Assembly: GCA_029212415.1 (NCBI GenBank)
Contig: JARGOF010000008.1
Coordinates: 1-64,000, forward strand
Reading direction: 5' to 3'
DNA length: 64,000 bases
Origin: Rhizobiaceae bacterium
GTDB lineage: Bacteria > Pseudomonadota > Alphaproteobacteria > Rhizobiales > Rhizobiaceae
Each line of letters begins with the position of its first letter. Positions within the stretch are counted from its first letter, which is position 1. This document shows positions 25,358 to 33,145 of this stretch, one piece after another. The notes under the pieces were generated by a model that was not told the origin of the DNA, searched no databases, and saw only the letters and a program-made list of their open reading frames with translations. The position numbers and the translations under genes were made by a program.

Positions 25358-26686
25358 TCAATAGGCCGCAGCGTATTTCGCGCATATTTCCTCATCAGAC
25401 AAATCCTGCATGACCGCGATTTCACAACGTTTGTGGCGCAAATAGGTATCGACCAAGGTCTCGCCGAATGCCTCAGCAGCCCAGGCGCTTGTGGCAAAGC
25501 GCTGAAGCGCGCTCTCCAGCGAGAGCGGCAGCCGTTCGATGTTCATGGCAGAAAGTTCATCCGCGTCCATCATGGTCAGGTCAGTACGGGTTGCCTCCGG
25601 TGCATCAAGCGCCGCATCCAGACCTGCCGTTCCCGCCCTGATCAAGGCTGCAAGCACCAGATAGGGACTGGCGGCTGCATCAGCTGCCCGGTACTCGAAA
25701 TGAAATTTGTCTTCGGTATCGTCCTGCGTGCCGCCCTGGAAAACAGGACAGATGCGTACCCCGGCCTCGCGGTCCTGGATGCCCAGATTATTATAGGCTG
25801 CACTCCAGCGATAGGGCACAAGGCGCATATAGGAGGCAACGGACGGCGCTGTCAGACAAAGATATTCGGGCATCAGTTTCAGCATGCCGGCGAGAAAGGA
25901 ACCGGCGATCTGCGACAGGCCGTGCGGCCGATGTGAATCGTAATTGACCTGAGCCCCATTGATATCCTGAAGCGAAAAATGAACATGGACGCCGTTGCCG
26001 ACACCGGCCGGGTCCATCATCGGTGTGAAACTGGCGCGCGCATCCAGGCCGCGTGCGACCGAGCGCGTCATCTCACGTAAAACCACCGCGTCGTCGGCGG
26101 CACGCAGCGCATTGTTCGGTTCGATTGTGAACTCGCATTGCCCCGGCCCGTATTCCGGCATGAAGGTGTCGGGCACCAGGCCGCAGCGGTCAATCACATC
26201 CGACAATCTGTCCGGGAAGGCGCCAAGCCGGCGCCTGGCTCGCAGGGAATAGCCCAGGCCCGGTTGTTCCTGACAACCGGAATAGTGGAATTCATGTTCA
26301 AATGCCGCGGTCAGGACAAGCCCGTGCTTCTCGCGCAATGCATCGATCGCACTCATCAATTGCCCACGCAGGCAACAATCCCAAGGATCGCCAGCCAACG
26401 TCAACACATTGCCGATGACGAAACATTCATCGACCTGATAGTCGGGAATATGAATGTCAATCATGGTTGAAAAATCTGGTTGCAGCATGAGATCGCCAAG
26501 CGCACCCCAGTGGCCGGTTGCAATCGGGCCAAAGGCGGTAATCAGGGCATTCGTCGGTGTCCAGCCAACGCCAATGACCGAACGATGATCTCTGGCGCGC
26601 AACGGCATGGCCTTGCCTCGCAATTGGCCTGCCATATCGCTCGTCACCACCATGACCAGGTCTGTGTCCTTGCGTGCGCTGCTCAT
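25358..26686 (-). CDS. Glutamine synthetase family ligase (GS-like, likely glutamate-amine ligase)
   Basis: A 442-residue ATP-dependent ligase of the GS superfamily. The catalytic residues map well: FEHEFHYS (first Glu pair), EYGPGQCEF, NGVHVHFS (ATP/metal His), MRLVPYRW, DREAGVRI and the late HFEYRAAD. The N-terminal beta-grasp domain is short (ITAFGPIATGHWGALGDLML region). True nitrogen-assimilation GSI is about 470 residues with an adenylylation loop, which is absent. Relatives join glutamate to polyamines or other amines. ATG 26686 with GAGGGA upstream is chosen over an earlier start at 26803. It is divergent from the ABM gene and stands apart from the second GS-like gene, from which it differs clearly. 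Substrate unknown. Confidence 0.82.
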   Translation of the reverse strand: MSSARKDTDLVMVVTSDMAGQLRGKAMPLRARDHRSVIGVGWTPTNALITAFGPIATGHWGALGDLMLQPDFSTMIDIHIPDYQVDECFVIGNVLTLAGDPWDCCLRGQLMSAIDALREKHGLVLTAAFEHEFHYSGCQEQPGLGYSLRARRRLGAFPDRLSDVIDRCGLVPDTFMPEYGPGQCEFTIEPNNALRAADDAVVLREMTRSVARGLDARASFTPMMDPAGVGNGVHVHFSLQDINGAQVNYDSHRPHGLSQIAGSFLAGMLKLMPEYLCLTAPSVASYMRLVPYRWSAAYNNLGIQDREAGVRICPVFQGGTQDDTEDKFHFEYRAADAAASPYLVLAALIRAGTAGLDAALDAPEATRTDLTMMDADELSAMNIERLPLSLESALQRFATSAWAAEAFGETLVDTYLRHKRCEIAVMQDLSDEEICAKYAAAY

Positions 26687-26868
26687 CTGCTGTCCCTCAA
26701 TTACCAATTGGCCAAGTCTTATCACGGTCCTTTGTGTCAATAAACTGAATGCTTGGGGTGACAGGGGCGATTGAAAAGACCCTGACCAAGCAATTCCTGT
26801 CAAAAAATCATGCGATGGGTTAGGCTGACCGCTTCATTTTCAAATCAGACACGATTAAAGGAAACAAA

Positions 26869-27168
26869 ATGATTGTCGTTACAGGGACCATAGAATTCGC
26901 CGAGCAGGACGCCGAGGCAGCCATTCCGCTGATCCTGGAGGCCGTGCGCCTTACCAATGAGGAAGAAGGCTGCCTATTCTATCGCTTCTATCAGGATCTG
27001 GAGATCAGGGGCCTGTTCCGATTCTATGAAGAATGGACGACAATGGATGCTCTTTCAGCCCACGCCAAGAGTGCGCATATGGCAGCGTTTCAAAAGAGCC
27101 GGGGTGAACTGACCGTTCTAGCCCGCGCAGGAAAGATCATGGAAGCGCAGCATCTTCGAGACTTGTAG
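26869..27168 (+). CDS. ABM-domain quinol monooxygenase family protein
   Basis: A 99-residue ferredoxin-like antibiotic-biosynthesis-monooxygenase (ABM) domain protein, related to YgiN. The EEGCLFYRFYQDLEIRGLF and FYEEWTTMDALSAHAKSAHM segments carry the family pattern, with the conserved His-containing helix near residues 65-70. Members oxidise quinols or aromatic polyketides without cofactor, but many have no proven reaction. It is transcribed away from the GS-like gene across 182 bp, and its stop codon lies in the loop of a 12-bp hairpin facing the convergent alcohol dehydrogenase gene. Confidence 0.85.
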   Translation: MIVVTGTIEFAEQDAEAAIPLILEAVRLTNEEEGCLFYRFYQDLEIRGLFRFYEEWTTMDALSAHAKSAHMAAFQKSRGELTVLARAGKIMEAQHLRDL

Positions 27169-27206: not shown

Positions 27207-28352
27207 TCAGATGCATTCTTCCAAAAGGGCGATGACATTCCGGGTTGTCAGCGTGACCGGATTGCCCCCGGCGCTCGGGTCTTCGAGCGCCATTTTTGCA
27301 ATCTCTTCCAAACGGTCCGTGCCAACACCAAGATCGCGCAATTTGTCCGGTACGCCGAGGTCTGCACGCAGAGCCAGCATATAATCATAAAACCCGTCGA
27401 AGCCCCCGGATATGCCAAGATAATCAGCGGCCCTGGAAATGCGCTCCTCGATTTTCGGACGGTTCATTTTCAGCACTGGCGGAATGACAACAGCGTTGGT
27501 CATACCGTGATGGGTGTTGTAGAGCGCGCCAATCGGGTGAGATATGGCATGCACGGCACCCAGGCCCTTCTGGAAGGCCGTGGCGCCCATGGCTGCCGCA
27601 CTCATCATGTGGCCCCTAGCCTCAATATTTTGCGGATCGGCAACCACGATTGGCAGGTTTTCCTTGACCAGCCGCATGCCTTCCAGCGCGATGCCCTGGC
27701 TCATCGGATGATAGAAGGGTGACGAATAGGCCTCAAGGCAATGGGCAAGTGCATCCATGCCCGTGCCGACTGTAATGATTTTCGGCATGCCGACCGTCAG
27801 TTCCGGATCGCATATCACCACAGAGGGCAGCACTTTCGGGTGAAAGATGATCTTTTTCACATGGGTTTTCGAATTGGTGATGACCCCGGCACGGCCCACC
27901 TCCGATCCGGTCCCGGCAGTGGTCGGCACGGCAACATTGGGAAAAATTGCATCCGCATCGGCTCTGGTCCACCAGTCACCAACATCCTCGAAATCCCAGA
28001 CCGGGCGGCTCTGACCGGCCATCATGGCAACAAGTTTTCCCAGATCTAGTCCGGAGCCGCCGCCGAAGGCAACGACACCATCGTGGCCACCGGCCTTGAA
28101 GGCTTCGATGCCCGCCGCCAGATTGATTTCATTCGGATTGGGATCAACATCGGAAAAGATGGATCGGCCCAGTCCGGCCTGTTCCAGAATATCCAGGGCA
28201 TTGAGGGTTATTGGCAGATTGGCCAGGCCCTTGTCGGTGACCAGCAGCGGTCTCTTGATGCCCGCTGCCATGCAGGCCTCAGCCAGCTCCTTGATGCGGC
28301 CGGCACCAAAACGGATTGCAGTCGGGTAACTCCAATTCACGGAAATCGTCAT
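27207..28352 (-). CDS. Iron-containing alcohol dehydrogenase (group III)
   Basis: A 381-residue NAD(P)-dependent dehydrogenase. The cofactor loop VVAFGGGSGLDLGK (about 94-107) and the metal-ligand region GMDALAHCLEAYSS ... GAVHAISHPIGALYNTHHGM place it in the Fe-ADH family, which converts primary alcohols to aldehydes or the reverse. ATG 28352 starts three bases after the aldehyde dehydrogenase stop and has AGGAAA upstream; an earlier in-frame start at 28460 lies inside that gene. It is the last gene of the GS-ALDH-ADH operon. I infer that the alcohol substrate is a glutamylated amino alcohol. A lactaldehyde- or butanol-type role cannot be excluded. Confidence 0.9.
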   Translation of the reverse strand: MTISVNWSYPTAIRFGAGRIKELAEACMAAGIKRPLLVTDKGLANLPITLNALDILEQAGLGRSIFSDVDPNPNEINLAAGIEAFKAGGHDGVVAFGGGSGLDLGKLVAMMAGQSRPVWDFEDVGDWWTRADADAIFPNVAVPTTAGTGSEVGRAGVITNSKTHVKKIIFHPKVLPSVVICDPELTVGMPKIITVGTGMDALAHCLEAYSSPFYHPMSQGIALEGMRLVKENLPIVVADPQNIEARGHMMSAAAMGATAFQKGLGAVHAISHPIGALYNTHHGMTNAVVIPPVLKMNRPKIEERISRAADYLGISGGFDGFYDYMLALRADLGVPDKLRDLGVGTDRLEEIAKMALEDPSAGGNPVTLTTRNVIALLEECI

Positions 28353-28354
28353 TG

Positions 28355-29740
28355 CTACAGTACTTTCCTGAGGTGATAGGATTTGGGGCGTGTCAGATTC
28401 TGGAAACCGATGATGGAGAGCGCGCCGCCCCGTCCGGTGTTTTTGCATCCCGTCCAGCAAAGGCCCGGATCAAGATAGTCAGCCCTGTTCATGAATATCG
28501 TGCCGGTTTGAAGGCGCCGGCCAATGGCCGCAGCTCTGTCCACATCCTGTGTCCACAATGATGCTGTCAGGCCGAATTCGCTGTCATTCATCAGCGCAAC
28601 GGCCTCTTCGTCACTGTCCACCGACATGATCCCGATGAGAGGACCAAAGGTCTCGTCACGCATGACACGCATGTCATGGGTCACATTTGTCAGTATCTGC
28701 GGCATCAGATAGGCACCGCCATCATCCTGTGGAAACAGCGCCGGATCGATATGCGCCTTGGCGCCCTGGTCAATGGCCTCGCGGCACTGCGCCCTGACTT
28801 CTGCTGCAAAGCGACGATGCGCCATGGGTCCCAGCGTCGTTGTCTCATCCAGCGGATTGCCCAATGTGTAGCCGGAGACAATGGCAACAGCCTTTTCAAC
28901 AAATGCATCATAGAGGGATGCCGTCACATAGATGCGTTCAATGCCGCAACAACATTGCCCCGAATTGAACATGGCGCCATCAATCAATGTCTCGACTGCA
29001 GCATCCAGGTTCGCGTCTTCCATGACATAGCCCGGATCCTTGCCGCCCAGTTCAAGGCCGATATTTGTGAATGTCCCGGCAGCGGCCCGTTCGATCGCCC
29101 TGCCCCCACCGACGGAACCGGTGAAATTGACAAACCCGAAACTCTTGGCCGCAATCAGTTCGGAAGTCGTTTCGTGATCAAGGAAAATATTCTGAAATAC
29201 GCCCTCCGGAACCCCCGCTTCGACAAAGGCGCGCGCCATGCGCTCGCCGACGAGAAGCGTTTGTGTGGAGTGTTTGAGCAAGACCGTATTACCGGCAATG
29301 AGGGCCGGGGCAACGGTGTTGATTGCCGTCATATAGGGATAGTTCCACGGGGCAATGACCAGTACGACACCGTGCGGCTCGCGCTCGATGCGTCGTTCAA
29401 ACTGATCGCTGTCTTCGACGACGATGGGTTTGAGCGCCTCCTCGGCAATATCAGCCATATAGGATGCACGTTCATTGAAACCGCCGAATTCCCCGCCATA
29501 GCGCATGGGACGACCCATCATCCAGGCCAGTTCGGGGACGATGTCGTCATTCATGGCGCCAACGCGGGCAACACCGGCGCGCACCAATTCTACACGTTCG
29601 GCCAAAGGCCTTTCTGCCCAGCTTTTTTGAGCCGTCGCCGCCCTTTCAACAGCAGCCTGCGCCTCGCTCGAAGACGCTGTGGGACGTTCGGCGAAAACAG
29701 ATCCGTCGATGGGTGAAATGGATTGCAACATTTTGGACAT
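28355..29740 (-). CDS. NAD(P)-dependent aldehyde dehydrogenase
   Basis: A 461-residue member of the ALDH superfamily. APWNYPY (130-136), FTGSVGGGR (206-214), the general base Glu230 in LELGGKDPG (229-237) and the catalytic cysteine cluster GQCCCG (261-266) are present. It oxidises an aldehyde to the acid. ATG 29740 lies just past the stop of the upstream GS-like gene (29742) and begins MSKMLQSISP, so the genes are tightly coupled. Placed between a GS-type ligase and an Fe-ADH, it would take the aldehyde formed by the ADH. The middle cysteine of the triplet is the usual nucleophile. Confidence 0.93.
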   Translation of the reverse strand: MSKMLQSISPIDGSVFAERPTASSSEAQAAVERAATAQKSWAERPLAERVELVRAGVARVGAMNDDIVPELAWMMGRPMRYGGEFGGFNERASYMADIAEEALKPIVVEDSDQFERRIEREPHGVVLVIAPWNYPYMTAINTVAPALIAGNTVLLKHSTQTLLVGERMARAFVEAGVPEGVFQNIFLDHETTSELIAAKSFGFVNFTGSVGGGRAIERAAAGTFTNIGLELGGKDPGYVMEDANLDAAVETLIDGAMFNSGQCCCGIERIYVTASLYDAFVEKAVAIVSGYTLGNPLDETTTLGPMAHRRFAAEVRAQCREAIDQGAKAHIDPALFPQDDGGAYLMPQILTNVTHDMRVMRDETFGPLIGIMSVDSDEEAVALMNDSEFGLTASLWTQDVDRAAAIGRRLQTGTIFMNRADYLDPGLCWTGCKNTGRGGALSIIGFQNLTRPKSYHLRKVL

Positions 29741-29741
29741 A

Positions 29742-31109
29742 TCAGGCTCTTTCAAATCCGCGGGTAACTTCCCAATCGGTGACACGGCGGTCATATTCTT
29801 CCTGTTCCCAGCTGGCAGCGCGGACATAATGGTCGATCACTGTATCGCCCATGGCAGCGCGCAGCATTTTGGAACCGTTCAATGTGCCTATTGCATCGCG
29901 CAAGGTCCTGGGAACCGAGCGGACATCCGCATTATAGGCATCACCTTTGAACTCGGCTTCAAGTTCCCGTTTGTTTTCAATCCCATCCAGACCGGCTGCG
30001 ATGAGCGCGGCCATCGCCAGATGCGGATTGAGATCCGATCCGCCGACCCGGCATTCAACCCGTATGGCATTGGTATCATCACCGCATATGCGGTAGCCGG
30101 CCGTACGGTTGTCCCGGCTCCAGACGGCCTTTGTCGGAGCGAAAGTGCCTTCGGCGAAGCGTTTGTAGGAATTGACGTAGGGCGCCAGAAACCATGTCAC
30201 GTCGCTGGCATTGTGCAACAGGCCGGCCACATAATGCCGCATCAAGTCGGACATGCCATACTCGCCCGATGCATCGCGGAACAGTGGCGTCTCGCCGTCC
30301 ATGCTCCACAGGGACTGGTGAATATGCGACGAATTGCCGGCTGAATCATTGTGCCACTTGGCCAGGAAGGTCAGAGACTGCCCCTGCCCCCAGGCAATCT
30401 CCTTGCAGGCATTCTTGATGAAAGCATGGGTATCGGCCATATCCAGTGCGTCGGAATATTTCACGTTGATTTCTTCCTGTCCTGCACTGGCTTCGCCCTT
30501 GGAACATTCGACTTCAACGCCTGCGCCGTGCAATCCGTTGCGGATGGCGCGCATGACATTTTCTTCCTTGGTGGTCTGGAAGACACTGTAATCTTCATTG
30601 TATTTTGCAACGGTTTTCAGACCGCGGTAGCCACTGGCCTGGGCTGCCTCGAAGCTCTGTTCAAACAGAAAAAATTCAAGTTCGGTGGCCATCAGGGCTT
30701 TGATGCCCATCGCTTCCAGCCGTGCGACCTGCTTTTTCAATATGGCGCGCGGTGAATGGGGCACTTCTTCAGGCGAATGATGATCAAACACATCGCACAA
30801 CACGTAGGCCGTTTTTTCAAGCCATGGCACCAGACGCAGCGTCGAGAGATCCGGCTTCATCGTATAATCGCCATAACCGCTTTCCCAGCTGGTCGACTGA
30901 TAGCCACTGACGGTTTCCATCTCCAGATCGGTCGCCAGCAGGTAATTGCAGCAATGGGTTTCCTTATAGGCGCTGTTGACAAAATAGTCGGCCTGAAACC
31001 GCTTGCCCATCAAACGCCCCTGCATATCGACCTGTGCGGCGACAACGGTATCGATCTCACCTTGTGAGACAGCTTGCTTGAGTGCTTCAAATGTAAGATT
31101 GCCGGGCAT
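29742..31109 (-). CDS. Glutamine synthetase family ligase, putative gamma-glutamylamide synthetase
   Basis: A 455-residue GS-superfamily ligase. ATELEFFLF, GQEEINVKY, GNSSHIHQSL (replacing the GSGMHVHxS of true GS), NSYKRF, DNRTAGYRI and RVECRVGGSDLNPHLAMAAL mark the active site. The family includes PuuA, IpuC and GlnA4-type enzymes that condense glutamate with amines such as putrescine, isopropylamine or ethanolamine. No adenylylation motif is present. It is the first gene of an operon with aldehyde and alcohol dehydrogenases and follows the amidohydrolase gene by 239 bp. I infer a gamma-glutamyl amine ligase. The amine is not known. Confidence 0.87.
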   Translation of the reverse strand: MPGNLTFEALKQAVSQGEIDTVVAAQVDMQGRLMGKRFQADYFVNSAYKETHCCNYLLATDLEMETVSGYQSTSWESGYGDYTMKPDLSTLRLVPWLEKTAYVLCDVFDHHSPEEVPHSPRAILKKQVARLEAMGIKALMATELEFFLFEQSFEAAQASGYRGLKTVAKYNEDYSVFQTTKEENVMRAIRNGLHGAGVEVECSKGEASAGQEEINVKYSDALDMADTHAFIKNACKEIAWGQGQSLTFLAKWHNDSAGNSSHIHQSLWSMDGETPLFRDASGEYGMSDLMRHYVAGLLHNASDVTWFLAPYVNSYKRFAEGTFAPTKAVWSRDNRTAGYRICGDDTNAIRVECRVGGSDLNPHLAMAALIAAGLDGIENKRELEAEFKGDAYNADVRSVPRTLRDAIGTLNGSKMLRAAMGDTVIDHYVRAASWEQEEYDRRVTDWEVTRGFERA

Positions 31110-31348
31110 TGGATCACATTTCCTGTTGGTTATCGGGCATTGTCGGCACGGACCTTAAAAAGACGGCGACAACAAGGTTATTTTGTCCTTGCCGCTTTTC
31201 GGCATTTTTCTTTTCGGCCAGCAGTTTGATCTTTGGCCAATCGTTTGCTCACTGGTAATACAGTCTCTCAGTATCTTCATCTTTCACTAACCCCAAGCCA
31301 TTCACTCGGCAAGAGCGACGCGGTGGGCGTTGCGAACATATCCGGCGC

Positions 31349-32158
31349 TCAATTCGGCTGCATTCCTGCCACTTGATCGAGCGCGGCCTGCAGCATTGCG
31401 ACCAATTGAGCGCCAACGGCTTTCCGGTCTTCTTCCCGGCACGCAAGATCATTCCTGATTTCGATCATCACATTGAGCAATTGCAGCGGCAAAGCATGTT
31501 TTTGCAGGGTATGCATGACGCCATGCTGAGGACCATAGGGTTCATTGCGCTCTACCTTCAGGCTTGAACGTTCCTCGGCCGCGGCAAGCAAGGCATCGGC
31601 GAGGCGCGAATCCTTGTCGTGCAGGATGCCCAGTTCAACCGCCCGTGGTTTGCCGTGGTAGACCGGCGTAAATGTGTGGATTGTGACCAGCACTGGCCTG
31701 CGACCGGCCTTCATCCGCTGTTCGATAAAATCCGTGATCGCCGCATGAAAGGGTGTGTAGACTTCCGCAATACGTGAGGCCCTGTCCCCCTCGCTGAGGT
31801 CCTTATTGCCCGGTATGTCAAATATCTCGCTGCGTGCGGGCATCGCGTCCAGTGCATCCGGGGGACGGTTGCAATCATAGACCAACCGGGAAAAATTCTG
31901 GGCAATCAGCGGGGCATCCAGCGCATCAGACATCAATCTGGAAACAGCAAAGGCCCCTGGATCCCAGGCCACATGACTGATGCTAGCCTCTTCGCTCAAT
32001 CCCAATTTGTCCAGCGAGAATGGAAAACGGTTTGATGCGTGTTCGCAGACCAACAGGACATCACTTTTCCCGTCAATATTATATCGGCTGACAGGATCGC
32101 CATCCGCGTCTCGCAATAGGTGTACCTTATTCATCATTTCAGCCTGCTCTATCGCCAT
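31349..32158 (-). CDS. N-formylglutamate amidohydrolase family protein
   Basis: A 269-residue hydrolase of the FGase (HutG2) family, with VLLVCEHASNRFP (about 34-46), HVAWDPGAFAVSR (about 62-74), TIHTFTPVYHGKPRAVELGI (about 158-177) and the C-terminal MIEIRNDL. The classical enzyme removes formate from N-formylglutamate at the end of histidine breakdown, but no hut genes are here. In this setting hydrolysis of a gamma-glutamylated intermediate is a reasonable alternative. It is divergent from the RpiR regulator across about 130 bp and reads in the same direction as the ligase-dehydrogenase operon. Confidence 0.85.
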   Translation of the reverse strand: MAIEQAEMMNKVHLLRDADGDPVSRYNIDGKSDVLLVCEHASNRFPFSLDKLGLSEEASISHVAWDPGAFAVSRLMSDALDAPLIAQNFSRLVYDCNRPPDALDAMPARSEIFDIPGNKDLSEGDRASRIAEVYTPFHAAITDFIEQRMKAGRRPVLVTIHTFTPVYHGKPRAVELGILHDKDSRLADALLAAAEERSSLKVERNEPYGPQHGVMHTLQKHALPLQLLNVMIEIRNDLACREEDRKAVGAQLVAMLQAALDQVAGMQPN

Positions 32159-32203
32159 TGTGTAAAAATCTCTACAGAAACACGCCTCCAGTCAATAGGC
32201 CTC

Positions 32204-32265
32204 TGAAACAATATTTTCAAAATTTGTGGCGCCGCTGCGAAAAGCAAGATAGGTTATTTCGAAAT
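32204..32265. promoter_or_regulatory. Candidate RpiR operators in the divergent gap
   Basis: Two palindromes lie in the 132-bp gap. TGAAA-N6-TTTCA is at 32204-32219 and the perfect ATTTCGAAAT at 32256-32265. They stand between the amidohydrolase start (32158) and the RpiR start (32291). Their spacing, about 50 bp centre to centre, would suit co-operative binding or one site per promoter. Evidence is symmetry and location only. Confidence 0.4.
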
Positions 32266-32290
32266 TCAAGAGCCTTGCTGATTGGCGCAC

Positions 32291-33145
32291 ATGTCAGATA
32301 CCGTTTCAGATATCATCCGTGACAAGTTCAATGTCCTGACCCGGGCCGAACGAAAATTGGCCAATGTGCTGCTGGATAATTACCCCGTCAGCGGCATGAC
32401 CAGCATTACCCGCCTGGCGGAACTGGCCGAGGTTTCCCCACCATCGGTCGTGCGTATGGCGCAGAAATTGGGCTTCACGGGTTTTCCGGATCTCCAGAAT
32501 GCCCTGCGCGACGAGCTCGAGGCAACCATCTCGAACCCGATCGCAAAACATGATCGCTGGTCGCAGCAAGCGCCGGACACACATATTCTCAATCGTTTTG
32601 CCGATGCCGTCATCGACAATCTGCGGCAATCGCTCGACCAATTGCCGCCAGAGGATTTTGATCGTGTCAGTGCCTTGCTGGCCGACAGAAAACGGGCCGT
32701 CTATATTGTCGGCGGCAGGATCACCCATGCCCTTGCCGACTACCTGTTTACACATCTGCAGGTGCTGCGCGAAAACATTACCCTGTTGCCAGCCAATTCG
32801 AACATCTGGCCCCATCATGTCTTGAACATGAAGCCAGGCGACCTGCTGGTGATCTTTGACATTCGCCGATATGAACGCGACCTGATCAATCTTGCAGACA
32901 TGGCCAAGGAACAGGATGTCGAAATCATACTGTTCACGGACCAGTGGGGTTCGCCTGTCGGCAAAGCGGCCAGTCATCGTTTCAATATCAAGATTGAGGC
33001 ACCCTCGGCCTGGGACTCATCGGTTGTTACCCTGTTCATGCTTGAAGCCCTTACCGCAGCGGTCGAGACACGCATTTGGGGCGTGACAAAATCCCGCATG
33101 AAACAGCTTGAGGCATTGTTCGACAGGAGAAAGTTGTTCCGCTGA
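32291..33145 (+). CDS. MurR/RpiR family transcriptional regulator
   Basis: A 284-residue regulator. The N-terminal RpiR helix-turn-helix (about 1-75; SITRLAELAEVSPPSVVRMA) is followed by a SIS sugar-isomerase-like domain (about 120-260; VYIVGGRITHALADYLFTHL, then KPGDLLVIFDIRRYERD). Most relatives sense phosphosugars, but many alphaproteobacterial members with this SIS variant sit beside amino-acid or amine catabolic genes. ATG 32291 is preferred to a TTG nine bases earlier. It probably controls the divergent amidohydrolase and ligase operon. Confidence 0.92.
   Translation: MSDTVSDIIRDKFNVLTRAERKLANVLLDNYPVSGMTSITRLAELAEVSPPSVVRMAQKLGFTGFPDLQNALRDELEATISNPIAKHDRWSQQAPDTHILNRFADAVIDNLRQSLDQLPPEDFDRVSALLADRKRAVYIVGGRITHALADYLFTHLQVLRENITLLPANSNIWPHHVLNMKPGDLLVIFDIRRYERDLINLADMAKEQDVEIILFTDQWGSPVGKAASHRFNIKIEAPSAWDSSVVTLFMLEALTAAVETRIWGVTKSRMKQLEALFDRRKLFR

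Follow-up and report, generated by a model that had tools for sequence, protein, structure and literature searches.

A cluster of five genes in a 64,000-nt stretch of the 5.84-Mb genome of a Rhizobiaceae bacterium (JARGOF010000008.1, contig C76 in our numbering; hereafter the window) is very probably an operon for the use of ethanolamine by gamma-glutamylation. It encodes a ligase of the glutamine synthetase (GS) superfamily, an aldehyde dehydrogenase (ALDH), an Fe-alcohol dehydrogenase (ADH) and an FGase-type amidohydrolase, together with an RpiR-family regulator. The first-pass annotation of this DNA had described four minus-strand enzymes, a 239-bp gap between the FGase and GS genes and a divergent RpiR gene, and all of these are present according to Pfam matches and open reading frame (ORF) coordinates (Table 1). 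For this genome the substrate, each reaction and the regulation are read from sequence, and the route would run as follows. The ligase would attach glutamate, through its gamma-carboxyl group, to the ethanolamine amine at the expense of ATP; the ADH would convert the resulting gamma-glutamylethanolamide to the aldehyde; the ALDH would take the gamma-glutamyl aldehyde to gamma-glutamylglycine; and the amidohydrolase would split the latter into glycine and glutamate, which would be recycled. The RpiR protein is the probable regulator of the operon, and uptake would probably fall to a tripartite ATP-independent periplasmic (TRAP) transporter resembling EtoVWX and encoded on another contig; in most relatives the operon itself includes an uptake system, of TRAP or permease type.

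The pathway itself is already known from Chromohalobacter salexigens, A. tumefaciens C58 and Phaeobacter MED193, and the local twist is the apparently separated transporter. An ethanolamine pathway of this kind is attributed to C. salexigens and A. tumefaciens C58 (PMC10132767), and the families PF00120, PF00465, PF00171 and PF05013 are tabulated for ethanolamine use by C. salexigens (PMC9397018, Table 2). The window holds the same four families, and the sequence of glutamate addition, alcohol and then aldehyde oxidation, and glutamyl removal put forward at first pass fits this pathway. In Phaeobacter sp. MED193, five products of the operon MED193_10021-10056 are reported to be up on phosphorylethanolamine and EtoX to bind ethanolamine with a Kd of 7.9 uM (PMC10132767). 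By locus tag, that operon has the RpiR-amidohydrolase-ligase-ALDH-ADH order of the window, with RpiR first (MED193_10021), but it carries EtoVWX between amidohydrolase and ligase, where the window has only the gap and keeps an EtoX-like TRAP system on another contig. The likeness to A. tumefaciens C58 lies in the amidohydrolase, the nearest solved chain of which, 2ODF (E 3.4e-87), is Atu2144, deposited as a hypothetical protein. Enzymes of the FGase family have N-acyl amino acids as substrates, a preference that fits gamma-glutamylglycine. The glutamylation logic and a GS-superfamily ligase are also shared with the E. coli Puu pathway, which differs in using, by gene names, an oxidase and PuuD. 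As far as its description goes, the pathway proposed for GlnA4 of Streptomyces coelicolor is likewise similar in its gamma-glutamylation, two oxidations, formylglutamate-type amidohydrolase and lack of conservation of D50 and E327, whereas its cluster is described with a short-chain dehydrogenase and a glutamine amidotransferase, and GlnA4 was modelled on PauA7 (PMC6529630).

The ligase of the window is 61.1% identical over 450 residues to PDB 5DM3, which we take to be the C. salexigens ligase, encoded beside Csal_0678, and 57.6% identical to 11ZS; its identity to E. coli PuuA and GlnA is 29.0% and 25.9%, respectively. All six metal ligands of GS are retained in it, as are most of the residues for glutamate and both of those for ADP (G265, R321, R359, H271 and R344 are conserved), while N264 is replaced by alanine, as it is in 5DM3, 11ZS and PuuA, and Y179 falls in an alignment gap. 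Both ammonia-specific residues are replaced, D50 by S and E327 by F, in agreement with the published descriptions of GlnA4 and PauA7, in which the E327 position is given as F and W, respectively (PMC6529630). In a tree of 31 rows that did not include IpuC or GlnA4, the ligase belongs to a 21-row clade with 5DM3 and 11ZS (support 99/99), away from GlnA and PuuA, which pair with two other proteins of the same genome (L001 and L006, respectively). The phylogenetic comparison suggested at first pass hence sets the enzyme apart from nitrogen-assimilation GS and from PuuA. Within the clade, the ligases of the window, of G006 and of G007 (locus L009) group together, and those of L100, L101 and L103, the remaining genus members included, group with 5DM3, indicating that the history of such operons is mixed even at the level of the genus.

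Evidence for ethanolamine as the substrate also comes from the transporters of related operons. In L009, whose ligase is 84% identical to that of the window, the operon includes a TRAP binding protein, EtoX, that matches 4UAB with an E-value of 8.2e-164 (next chain, 7.3e-15), and 4UAB is Csal_0678 with ethanolamine (PMC12410723). Because the same enzymes are paired in close relatives with an EtoX of this type, ethanolamine is preferred over alaninol; of the two substrates named at first pass, the former has gained in weight and the latter is less favored. The transporters that were to be sought beside the cluster in related genomes were indeed found, as a TRAP system or a permease, and it is the TRAP type that matches ethanolamine-bound 4UAB. 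EutB, the only marker of another ethanolamine route that was searched for, was detected in none of the eight genus genomes, with a positive E. coli control.

Conservation of the gene set was assessed in named genomes, in which more loci exist than the 80 listed here, so that counts over 80 refer to the matches listed (tblastn, E 1e-10, with position limits). The RpiR and FGase genes were each found in 77 loci, ALDH in 72, ADH in 71 and all five genes in 68, and this joint recurrence argues that their grouping is not due to chance. The 12 incomplete loci comprise five truncated by contig ends (L056, L070, L077, L078 and L080) and seven from Kiloniella, and RpiR identity drops to 35-36% in three Nitratireductor loci (L071, L075 and L086). 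At E <= 1e-120 the ligase is present in 70 of 101 sampled family genomes and, with one match each, in all eight genus genomes. Twenty further loci were also inspected, seven from other genus members and 13, selected by hand, from the family outside the genus; FGase, ligase, ALDH and ADH occur together in 11 of the latter. Some loci depart from the common layout. A two-component system comes next after the operon genes in one Kiloniella locus (L010), an HTH and PIN-domain pair resembling a toxin-antitoxin system separates ligase and ALDH in L088 (10401-11313), and in eight more named loci the interval between these two genes is likewise some 1 kb longer than usual. On plasmid pCB3060_2 of Rhizobium sp. 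CB3060 (L125), a ligase of 49.7% identity lies alongside ALDH, FGase, APC permease, aminotransferase and dimethylformamidase-like genes in a stretch where neither ADH nor RpiR is annotated; this cluster perhaps represents a related pathway for another amine.

The position between FGase and ligase, in contrast to the enzyme set, is variable. Among the listed loci it holds a TRAP system in 23, an amino-acid permease like that of L017 in 48, a second sort of permease in eight and no transporter in one (L026), which is a near relative of the window. The two sorts of permease, which together fill 56 of the 80 slots, are only distantly related (the second sort has 20.6-22.9% identity to the L017 permease in best local alignments), and Pfam AA_permease_2 was found in all four of the eight second-sort proteins that were checked. 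Among the 13 family loci, FGase and ligase lie close together with no TRAP or permease match in L108, L110 and L115, and L119 has the second sort of permease. Plasmid pMET3 of Aminobacter sp. NyZ550 (L122), typed as conjugative, carries a five-gene cassette without a transporter next to the bhcRABC glyoxylate genes, a neighborhood that would fit glycine as the end product. An empty slot is thus uncommon and not special to the window, and, given the permeases and the empty slots in L026, L108, L110, L115 and pMET3, we do not treat an in-operon TRAP as essential to this type of operon. No transporter remnant was detected in the 239-bp gap of the window (the best transporter match, to TRAP_P over 20 residues with E 0.12, was taken as chance), RNA folding revealed nothing unusual there (z -0.20), and promoter and terminator scans gave background levels only. 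Neither sort of permease had a match in the genome, in searches that were both run without a positive control.

Simple loss of the uptake system from this genome is contradicted by the presence of an EtoX-like TRAP system elsewhere. The sole EtoX-like protein of the genome (E <= 1e-90) is encoded on contig C25, and at the same threshold each of the eight genus genomes has one match (that of G002 with one internal TAG), inside the operon in six of them and elsewhere in the genome of the window and in G006. The remote set (L097) has matches to DctQ, DctM and DctP of L009. A GlpR-like gene directly precedes it, and genes resembling GlpK and a type-2 glycerol-3-phosphate oxidase lie beside it; the three glp-like genes score under NCBIfam cut-offs. 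The EtoX of the remote set matches 4UAB with an E-value of 2.9e-137 and retains 105 of the 109 columns that are invariant in 25 other sequences, including a glutamate that presumably forms the ligand platform and that, with an assumed tag offset, would correspond to Glu220. In the EtoX tree its partner (100/100) is the EtoX of L077, a protein encoded within such an operon and sharing 80% identity with it over 323 residues; the remote EtoX stands apart from the operon EtoX proteins of the genus, on a branch flagged as long. The whole block is conserved in G006, where identity is 100% for each of the three TRAP proteins and 94.7-98.8% for the glp-like ones; the oxidase-like gene occurs in three of the eight genus genomes (E <= 1e-80). 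The remote TRAP system probably serves ethanolamine uptake and may be under glycerol-phosphate control. A bolder and rather doubtful extension would be that the species studied here and G006, its sister, have separated uptake from the enzyme genes and put it behind a GlpR-like regulator, next to GlpK-like and glycerol-3-phosphate-oxidase-like genes, such that a single glycerol-phosphate signal would govern the uptake and use of ethanolamine and glycerol phosphate alike, the two halves of the glycerophosphoethanolamine headgroup. Since the remote TRAP appears to derive from a different lineage than the TRAP systems in the operons of the genus, such a detachment would mean loss of the native transporter and acquisition of a replacement.

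The same chemistry might act on another amino alcohol, such as alaninol, 1-amino-2-propanol or 3-amino-1-propanol, instead of or besides ethanolamine, and to this we assign a small chance. Ligases and dehydrogenases of these families are generally regarded as potentially broad, no transporter at the locus fixes the substrate and the remote TRAP has a divergent EtoX; yet the same enzymes in close relatives accompany the EtoX that matches ethanolamine-bound 4UAB, the remote EtoX keeps the putative platform glutamate and nearly all invariant columns, and the FGase preference mentioned above suits gamma-glutamylglycine. Degradation of a polyamine or of isopropylamine, of the PuuA or IpuC type, is very improbable. 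The ligase is slightly closer to PuuA than to GlnA, and a gene with an ABM domain, of monooxygenase type, borders the operon on the opposite strand, but PuuA groups with other GS proteins of the genome, the putrescine-ligase model NF045547 scores 196.1 bits against a cut-off of 650, and the five genes include no amine oxidase or PuuD-type hydrolase, in keeping with the preference for an amino alcohol over a polyamine expressed at first pass. The polyamine reading is accordingly rejected on family scores, active-site residues and the tree, while that for isopropylamine was weighed by gene content alone. Least probable of all is an accidental grouping of a nitrogen-assimilation GS with a histidine-type N-formylglutamate deformylase, as the generic family names might suggest. 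Against it stand the replacement of D50 and E327, a GlnA-pairing protein encoded elsewhere in the genome, the HutG model TIGR02017, which gives the amidohydrolase 19.8 bits against a cut-off of 278.75, and the conserved association of the five genes, and it too is rejected on family scores, active-site residues and the tree.

Several observations nonetheless weigh against an ethanolamine operon. An in-operon EtoVWX TRAP is absent from the window, and the remote EtoX is 64% identical to that of L009, its use in uptake being proposed from sequence. Among NCBIfam models, those for glutamate-ammonia ligases give the ligase its best scores, above the putrescine model, although all fall below their cut-offs (TIGR03105, 247.7 against 469.6 bits; TIGR00653, 241 against 429.15), and long outgroup branches leave the deep joins of the ligase tree unsure, with IpuC and GlnA4 outside it. 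The comparison with MED193 extends to gene order and names and that with C. salexigens to PDB chains; for the orientation of RpiR the comparison is instead with Paracoccus denitrificans PD1222, whose TRAP-bearing operon also has this gene divergent. Incomplete loci also count here. In Kiloniella (seven loci, L010-L016), genes for RpiR, FGase, TRAP and ligase are present but neither ALDH nor ADH is matched, and among the loci of the seven other genus members ALDH is unmatched in L103 and L104. Both exceptions among the 13 family loci are copies in G011, one (L113) with ligase and ADH matches only and the other (L114) with a ligase and a partial EtoX at a contig end, followed by 8.7 kb downstream without an ALDH or ADH match.

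The coordinates of the genes and of their nearest neighbors are collected in Table 1. Likely start codons were picked from the sequence by inspection, and the spacings, 1 and 2 bp for GS-ALDH-ADH and 239 bp from FGase to GS, depend on them. The surroundings are of a housekeeping kind, with mltG/yceG-, fabF-, fabG- and fabD-type genes on one flank and a ribosomal L9 gene on the other. Just downstream of the operon there is a second GS-superfamily gene, and between the two lies the small ABM-domain gene, neither of which figured in the first-pass annotation. The second GS gene, which pairs in the ligase tree with another protein of the same genome (L008), is found next to the operon not only in the window but also in three of the 20 further genus and family loci (G006, G007 and G026, the match in G026 (L118) being broken across two frames), and in two of the 80 listed ones (L009, from G007, and L026, from G006); with so few such loci, it was set aside as a pathway member. 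Its relatives occur in 20 of the 101 family genomes (E <= 1e-90), and the G002 copy (68%) is far from the ligase of that genome. L026 has an ORF of the same size at the position of the ABM gene, and there too it runs counter to the operon.

Table 1. Operon genes and adjacent features of the window.
Feature	Position	Strand	Matches and remarks
Second GS-superfamily gene	25358-26803	-	Nearest solved chain 4HPP, E 6e-88
ABM-domain gene	26869-27168	+	PF03992
Fe-alcohol dehydrogenase (ADH)	28352-27207	-	PF00465, E 1.4e-45; gene-order position of MED193_10056
Aldehyde dehydrogenase (ALDH)	29740-28355	-	PF00171 Aldedh, E 2.3e-118; gene-order position of MED193_10051
GS-superfamily ligase	31109-29742	-	PF00120 Gln-synt_C, E 4e-98
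Transporter slot, empty	31110-31348	.	239-bp gap; TRAP or permease here in most relatives
FGase-family amidohydrolase	32158-31349	-	PF05013, E 2.6e-40
RpiR-family regulator	32282 (TTG) or 32291 (ATG) to 33145	+	HTH_6 PF01418, E 1.6e-16; SIS PF01380, E 8.4e-23

These results provide likely names for five genes whose pathway is hidden by generic annotations such as glutamine synthetase family protein and N-formylglutamate amidohydrolase. It is mildly surprising that the enzyme set should be retained while the transporter slot has been refilled by a TRAP system or a permease, or left empty. Given how widely the ligase occurs among the sampled genomes, the operon points to a route from membrane-lipid ethanolamine to glycine that would be common in one alphaproteobacterial family.

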